Shown here: in pieces, positions 48,500 to 48,765 of the stretch
Layout of the letters: each line of letters opens with the position of its first letter
Position numbering within the stretch: the stretch's first letter is position 1
NCBI GenBank assembly: GCA_039707465.1
Contig: CM077648.1
Location: 18,387,619 to 18,451,618, forward strand
From: Rhabdophis nuchalis
Taxonomy: Eukaryota; Chordata; Lepidosauria; Squamata; Natricidae
Direction: 5' to 3'
DNA length: 64,000 bases
Made by a program: the position numbers and the translations under genes
The notes under the pieces: model-generated
Database searches by the model: none
Told to the model about the DNA's origin: nothing
The model's input: the letters and a program-made list of their open reading frames with translations, nothing else

Positions 48500-48765
48500 G
48501 CAAAAAGCCCCGGTTCGAATCCCAGTAAAGGGTATGGCCAACTGACGAGAGCTAATAAGCTCGAAATAGATCTATCTTGGTCTCTCAAATTTAAATTTAT
48601 TGATCAGCTCATAAAAACTAACACACATATCTAAAAAAAAAAATTTACACAATGGAACTCATGGTTCTCTCTCTAGATGGTCTCTGATGATGAGCCGAAA
48701 GGCAGAGAAGGAAACAGTATGTCTCCTCCCTTAATGGGACCCTAACAGGAAGTTGTGAAAACAAT
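48500..48765 (+). mobile_element. Hammerhead-bearing retroelement fragment
   Basis: CCCCGGTTCGAATCCCAG at about 48508-48525 looks like a polymerase III B box; the ribozyme follows 11 bp later. After it come CAAATTTAAATTTATTG, an A run and a 3' block with GAGCCGAAAGGCAGAG and GTCTCCTCCCTTAATGGG. The same 3' block is at 49500-49565. The tail runs into the GATA array. No A box is clear, so polymerase III use is only possible. PLE or SINE-like (retrozyme-like) origin is open. Confidence 0.6.
48536..48582 (+). ncRNA. Hammerhead ribozyme, type I (copy 1)
   Basis: Stem I is GGCCAA (48536-48541) with TTGGTC (48577-48582), six pairs including one G-T. Core CTGACGA is at 48542-48548. Stem II is GAGCT (48549-48553) with AGCTC (48558-48562), loop AATA. 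GAAA is at 48563-48566. Stem III is the palindrome ATAGATCTAT (48566-48575) and the cleavage triplet is ATC (48574-48576). Every invariant core position of a type I hammerhead is present. Self-cleavage is predicted between 48576 and 48577 of the plus-strand RNA. Confidence 0.88.

Follow-up and report, generated by a model that had tools for sequence, protein, structure and literature searches.

A scan of both strands of the window, the whole 64-kb stretch of DNA analysed here, with a hammerhead descriptor gave three matches, referred to below as copies C, A and B. Each is a complete type I hammerhead motif, and their stem III is shared.

40349..40396, plus strand: copy C, complete type I hammerhead motif, predicted cleavage 40391/40392 (descriptor scan)
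48536..48582, plus strand: copy A, complete type I hammerhead motif (sequence, descriptor scan and a three-copy family model, which was built from A, B and C and recovers all three by construction)
49361..49407, minus strand: copy B, complete type I hammerhead motif, predicted cleavage 49367/49366 (descriptor scan and match to the Rfam family HH9)
48566..48575, plus strand: stem III of copy A, the self-complementary ATAGATCTAT, identical in B and C

The original prediction had placed a complete type I hammerhead at 48536-48582, and both the letters and the coordinates of copy A were confirmed. It had overlooked copies B and C, which bear most of the evidence. In copy A, stem I is formed by 48536-48541 and 48577-48582 (six pairs including one G-U), the core by CTGACGA (48542-48548) and GAAA (48563-48566), and stem II by 48549-48553 and 48558-48562 (five pairs with an AATA loop). 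The numbers of pairs in stems I and II, the AATA loop, the palindromic stem III and the ATC triplet were all present as predicted, and the triplet places the predicted cleavage between 48576 and 48577. Loop II is A-rich, and a clear distal stem I partner for a putative loop II-stem I tertiary contact was not identified by eye. Copy C has a five-pair stem I, one broken terminal pair and a loop II that is 3 nt longer, and its cleavage nucleotide is A, not C. The NUH rule permits A at the cleavage nucleotide of a hammerhead. The CUGANGA and GAAA core, the NUH triplet, three stems and an open stem I were found in all three copies.

The descriptor was written once the first motif (A) was already known, and was used in a loose form, with stems of at least 3, 3 and 3 pairs, and in a strict form, with stems of at least 4, 4 and 3 pairs. 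Both forms gave the identical three matches in the window. Since A, B and C are homologous, they count as one origin and not as three independent events. It is conceivable that the copies belong to an ordinary short repeat that resembles a hammerhead by chance, its stems being fortuitous. The loose descriptor lends this some weight, with 20 matches in 400 first-order Markov windows of equal size, whereas the strict descriptor matched just 2 times in the same 400 windows. Furthermore, loci fetched by partial patterns did not yield the motif. Among viral contigs, 8 loci carried one partial pattern and none the second, and among prokaryote genome contigs 5 loci carried the second; by the loose descriptor 0 of these 13 loci is a hammerhead, and the pattern matches are taken as chance. 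A candidate fourth copy in the window, at 21017-21060, was rejected (E 0.49 with the three-copy model, core broken).

The covariance models gave a mixed answer. No Rfam match reached its gathering score anywhere in the 64-kb window. In a 2-kb scan, HH9 (RF02275), which we take to be linked to the RECK intronic hammerhead, scored 24.3 bits against A (E 0.0037) and 26.0 bits against B (E 0.0011), relative to a gathering score of 52; rescaled to 64 kb, these E-values become approximately 0.12 for A and 0.035 for B. A whole-window E-value scan with stricter filters listed neither A nor B, and when 111 bases around C were scanned, no hammerhead model matched at E up to 10. The covariance check that the original prediction had proposed for A would, taken alone, leave the finding undecided, the HH9 score lying well under gathering. 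Scores of this kind are also a point in favor of chance resemblance, as is the observation, described below, that the monomer does not prefer the hammerhead fold. The Rfam result is equivocal, and the case therefore rests on the homologous copies.

Copy B lies in a unit delimited by direct repeats, and sequences related to this unit occur at loci C and A.

49334..49569, minus strand: unit of copy B, 236 nt between the direct repeats
49316..49333, no strand assigned: direct repeat, probable target-site duplication, on the 3' side of B (shuffles and identity)
49570..49589, no strand assigned: direct repeat, probable target-site duplication, on the 5' side of B (shuffles and identity)
40240..40400, plus strand: copy C in diverged form, alignable with most of unit B (nhmmer search with that unit, E 0.00013)
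48583..48617, plus strand: copy A's 3' tail, which resembles that of B (score 25, reached by 1 of 1000 shuffles)
48658..48763, minus strand: 5' half of another copy of the element, adjoining A in the opposite orientation (nhmmer E 4.7e-14)

Unit B starts with GAGAGAATATTTTC and ends in TTAAAA, has a GC content of 41% over 233 nt, and carries its hammerhead 27 nt from the 3' end. The sequence CATAGGTTAGTGTT at 49316-49329 is identical to 49570-49583, and the extended match covers 18 of 20 nt. The alignment score of these repeats was reached by 0 of 1000 and 0 of 2000 shuffles, for stretches that were picked after the repeat had been seen. The direct repeats probably represent a target-site duplication. 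The 3' flank of A resembles the repeats of B (alignment score of the flank against B 38 when the repeat is included, 25 without it), so the repeats might instead belong to the element; we keep the target-site reading with that doubt.

Copy C aligns with the 5' part of unit B (score 44, p 0.001), and the two have this non-coding 5' part in common. At its 5' edge, 40219-40248, lies a 15-bp tandem duplication, GGTCTACCCAATTAT x2, a possible insertion scar. Copy A matches unit B just from the B box onward, over the last ~100 nt (48512-48624, nhmmer E 1.4e-11). No sequence homologous to the 5' part of the unit was found upstream of A (p 0.19), which leaves A either truncated at its 5' end or with a different head. 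The partial copy at 48658-48763 is equal to B at 88 of 101 aligned bases, with 11 further columns gapped, and its opposite orientation beside A makes the locus composite; there is no more than a hint (p 0.07) that this partial copy continues toward the hammerhead. A long TATC microsatellite, ~48766-48990, directly abuts the 5' end of this partial copy. Convincing direct repeats were found neither around A (p 0.39) nor around C (p 0.06). There are no tandem copies in the window, with one hammerhead per copy in 3 of 3 cases, and the search upstream of B for a second hammerhead unit, such as tandem retrozymes have, gave no support for one (p 0.28). The original prediction had described a repeated, retroelement-like context, and the three copies, with direct repeats of the target-site-duplication type around one of them, agree with that description.

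The comparison of the copies provides the main argument for the ribozyme. Between copies A and B there are 8 differences over 47 sites, and none of them breaks the fold. Six of the eight make up three compensated pairs (from A to B, an A-U to G-C change in stem I and, in stem II, a G-C to A-U and an A-U to G-C change), the remainder being the free position of the CUGANGA core and one loop II base. When A was mutated at random at eight sites with 75% transitions, 5115 of 3,000,000 simulated mutants retained the core and all 14 pairs. With A, B and C aligned, 4 of the 14 pairs carry changes in both partners, and pairing holds in 97.6% of cells; column shuffles equalled the first value in 11 of 500 cases and the second also in 11 of 500, and 0 of 6 slid registers showed any pair altered on both sides. 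The number of further pair types was unremarkable, the same number being reached in 335 of 500 shuffles. Divergence is similar in the hammerhead, where 39 of 47 sites agree between A and B, and in the 5' half of the unit, where 88 of 101 aligned bases agree and 11 more columns are gapped, so that the changes look filtered rather than few. The pattern, drawn from three sequences, which are few, is consistent with mutations that occurred in source elements while these were active and selection held the fold, and the stems changed in matched pairs suggest a working ribozyme during the spread of the element. Compensated changes and an untouched core across three copies would not be expected by chance, and we consider a fortuitous resemblance unlikely. 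From sequence comparison, it is well supported that a dispersed family of non-autonomous retroelements carries a hammerhead motif. The fuller description is of a family whose members are short (~235 nt) non-autonomous retroelements that are non-coding and carry a type I hammerhead close to the 3' end of the unit, and we give it about an even chance.

The ribozyme could alternatively belong to an autonomous element, the copies being debris of a Penelope-like element (PLE), namely of its terminal repeat (pLTR). PLE terminal repeats carry minimal type I hammerheads, and PLE copies are sometimes inverted. The Anolis Poseidon PLE carries a hammerhead, its reverse transcription starts internally, its copies end downstream of the ribozyme, and PLE copies are tandem or partial-tandem (PMC11167929). 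Unit B likewise ends 33 nt beyond its predicted cleavage site, and a tandem or inverted arrangement could account for locus A. In opposition to this, 0 of 17 open reading frames of at least 90 aa in the interval 38-52 kb matched a reverse transcriptase or GIY-YIG domain, a search that decayed frames would escape. Across the window, 14 open reading frames reach 150 aa; only one of them has an RVT_1 domain, and it lies far off at 11212-12564. The original prediction had seen no recognisable PLE, and a scan of 27 open reading frames, which gave no PLE-like coding sequence, is in agreement. Additionally, B and C share a 5' part that is non-coding, and B and the minus-strand partial copy seem to begin at a similar 5' end, as a discrete short unit would, a start that was judged by eye and is blurred by a GATA microsatellite. 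Based on these results, we regard an origin as PLE debris as improbable. The frame at 11212-12564 (plus strand, 450 aa, RVT_1 E 8.4e-35) is itself probably a LINE fragment.

Transcription by RNA polymerase III was considered because of sequence upstream of the motifs.

48512..48522, plus strand: perfect B-box-like GGTTCGAATCC in copy A, degenerate in B and unrecognisable in C
49440..49445, minus strand: T6 run in the sense orientation of copy B, immediately ahead of the place of the B box, which counts against Pol III transcription

A further explanation would hold that the element is a Pol III-transcribed, tRNA-type SINE with a hammerhead, like Sm-alpha of schistosomes. Sm-alpha carries Pol III boxes. 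In copy A a perfect B box precedes the motif by 13 nt (the original prediction had given 11 bp), and of the four positions at which the box of B departs from it, two show C to T and G to A, the changes that CpG decay would yield. However, the box matches at 7 of 11 positions in B and is not recognisable in C, so that it does not stand as a feature of the element, as had been proposed; an A-box pattern was not matched upstream of the B-box position in A, B or C; and ARAGORN found no tRNA. Copy C has a T5 run just upstream of the B-box position, and this run and the T6 run of B should stop Pol III. In copy A, T5 and T4 runs also occur in the 51 nt preceding its box, in a stretch that B does not share. 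Together, a B box that is not kept, the lack of an A box, the T runs in B and C and the lack of a tRNA indicate that a Pol III promoter is not a family feature, and we consider a Pol III-driven SINE very unlikely. Read-through transcription, proposed for retrozymes in PMC7761336, would suit the family better.

Known squamate SINEs were also considered as the element itself. The 67-nt satellite unit of Squam3 contains a B box and precedes a TC-rich stretch (PMC10702118), but the combination of Squam3 with this satellite was rejected, as the separate Squam3-like copies of the window have another body. These copies, tRNA-headed, compatible with Squam3 and with a TC-rich stretch near position 110, lie at ~2190-2420 (plus strand) and ~30590-30810 (minus strand). 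A further tRNA-type SINE, with copies at 4779, 10558, 24204, 26616, 27255 and 51378, differs from the element and was likewise set aside. Elsewhere in the window, miRNA models such as mir-5408 matched below gathering on both strands at 19104-19188, 6476-6544, 51533-51601 and 14973-15035; the matches on both strands suggest inverted-repeat mobile elements rather than miRNAs.

The best reading of the locus is a retrozyme-like, non-autonomous retroelement family, monomeric and not tandem in this window, in a host that is probably an amniote and, as the original prediction had it, probably a snake. How its ribozyme might act was approached by predicted folding. The hammerhead has a very low predicted ensemble probability as a monomer (0.0016 for A, 0.0009 for B and 0.0003 for C), and the predicted minimum folds of longer stretches (49333-49564 for B, 40235-40405 for C and 48500-48600 for A) do not contain it. 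In dimer folding, the double hammerhead, joined through the 10-nt palindrome, is the predicted minimum for A, B and C. The predicted energies of dimer versus two monomers are -31.6 versus -22.4 kcal/mol (A), -35.2 versus -26.2 kcal/mol (B) and -25.4 versus -17.0 kcal/mol (C), placing the double hammerhead 8.4 to 9.2 kcal/mol below two monomers in energies that omit tertiary contacts, protein and concentration. The original prediction had suggested that the palindromic stem III may act in dimers, and the predicted folding favors the dimer.

For the retrozyme-like family, we propose that transcripts would arise by read-through and would not be Pol III driven. They could pair via the palindromic stem III into the double hammerhead and then cut themselves, and multimeric transcripts, once cut, would release unit-length RNA. 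A host ligase could close this RNA into a circle, and the reverse transcriptase of a LINE or of a Penelope-like element could then copy it at a new insertion site, following the route proposed for metazoan retrozymes. In B the predicted cleavage site lies 33 nt before the end of the unit, and copies that keep such a tail would derive from RNA that was either uncut or rejoined (circular). We favor a circular RNA route, as in retrozymes, though no tandem copy here backs it. In the Anolis PLE, reverse transcription starts inside the RNA and the hammerhead is dispensable for insertion in vitro (PMC11167929). Since hammerhead mutants of that element were without effect on insertion in vitro, a role of the ribozyme in mobility is not a given.

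The original prediction had held that the class of the element may be undescribed. This is too strong, since the element is like metazoan retrozymes in its size, its low GC content, its type I ribozyme, its long direct repeats and in being non-coding. According to PMC7229834, a metazoan retrozyme has a unit of approximately 150-450 bp, a type I hammerhead and a GC content below 50%, values within which the 236 nt between the B repeats and the 41% GC over 233 nt fall. A target-site duplication, when present, exceeds 4 bp, and the repeats around B match over 18 of 20 nt. Thus the element resembles the non-LTR retrozymes described there from coral, mussel and axolotl in its few-hundred-nt unit, low GC content, type I hammerhead and direct repeats exceeding 4 bp (PMC7229834). 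In contrast to the tandem units of those retrozymes, each with a hammerhead, the three copies in this window carry single hammerheads, and the host is probably an amniote. Two retrozyme hammerheads are reported there from the axolotl: both cut better in dimeric constructs, and in one of them stem III is likewise very weak and bears a palindromic tetraloop (PMC7229834).

Other elements share some of these features. Like the Anolis Poseidon PLE (PMC11167929), the family has a hammerhead in what is probably a squamate retroelement, with copies running past the predicted cleavage site; unlike it, no open reading frame for a reverse transcriptase or GIY-YIG domain was found near the hammerhead here. 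Like Sm-alpha of Schistosoma, a non-autonomous retrotransposon with a hammerhead according to PMC6155905, it is a short interspersed element with a hammerhead, but Pol III features are not upheld across the copies here. Sauria SINE, Squam1, Squam2 and Squam3 are also short non-autonomous retroelements of squamates (PMC13295347, PMC10702118 and PMC7983390), whereas the Squam3-like copies in the window have a different body, a comparison made from published descriptions. The literature searched (titles and abstract openings) gave no account of squamate SINEs or retrozymes that contain a hammerhead, and a search with short motif strings returned one unrelated paper; the element may already be catalogued.

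Hammerhead retrozymes have been described from plants, invertebrates and amphibians in the literature consulted, and the hammerheads of human and other mammals are described as isolated motifs in PMC7229834. Amniote intronic hammerheads, such as those of RECK and other introns, have been proposed to be domesticated from retroelements (PMC6155905 and PMC3088659). Our copies resemble these intronic hammerheads (PMC6155905) in that HH9 is the best Rfam hammerhead family for A and B. They differ in that the HH9 scores lie far under gathering and in that a multi-copy sequence stands against one conserved intron. A bolder reading, which we hold to be distinctly unlikely, is that of a recently active amniote (squamate) retrozyme family that spreads via dimer-type cleavage and circular RNA and is a surviving relative of the ancestor of the HH9/HH10 intronic hammerheads. 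A dispersed hammerhead retroelement family in a squamate would give a natural series of diverged ribozymes for side-by-side tests of activity, dimer dependence and mobility. It would also offer a living comparison for the retroelement origin of the intronic hammerheads of amniotes.
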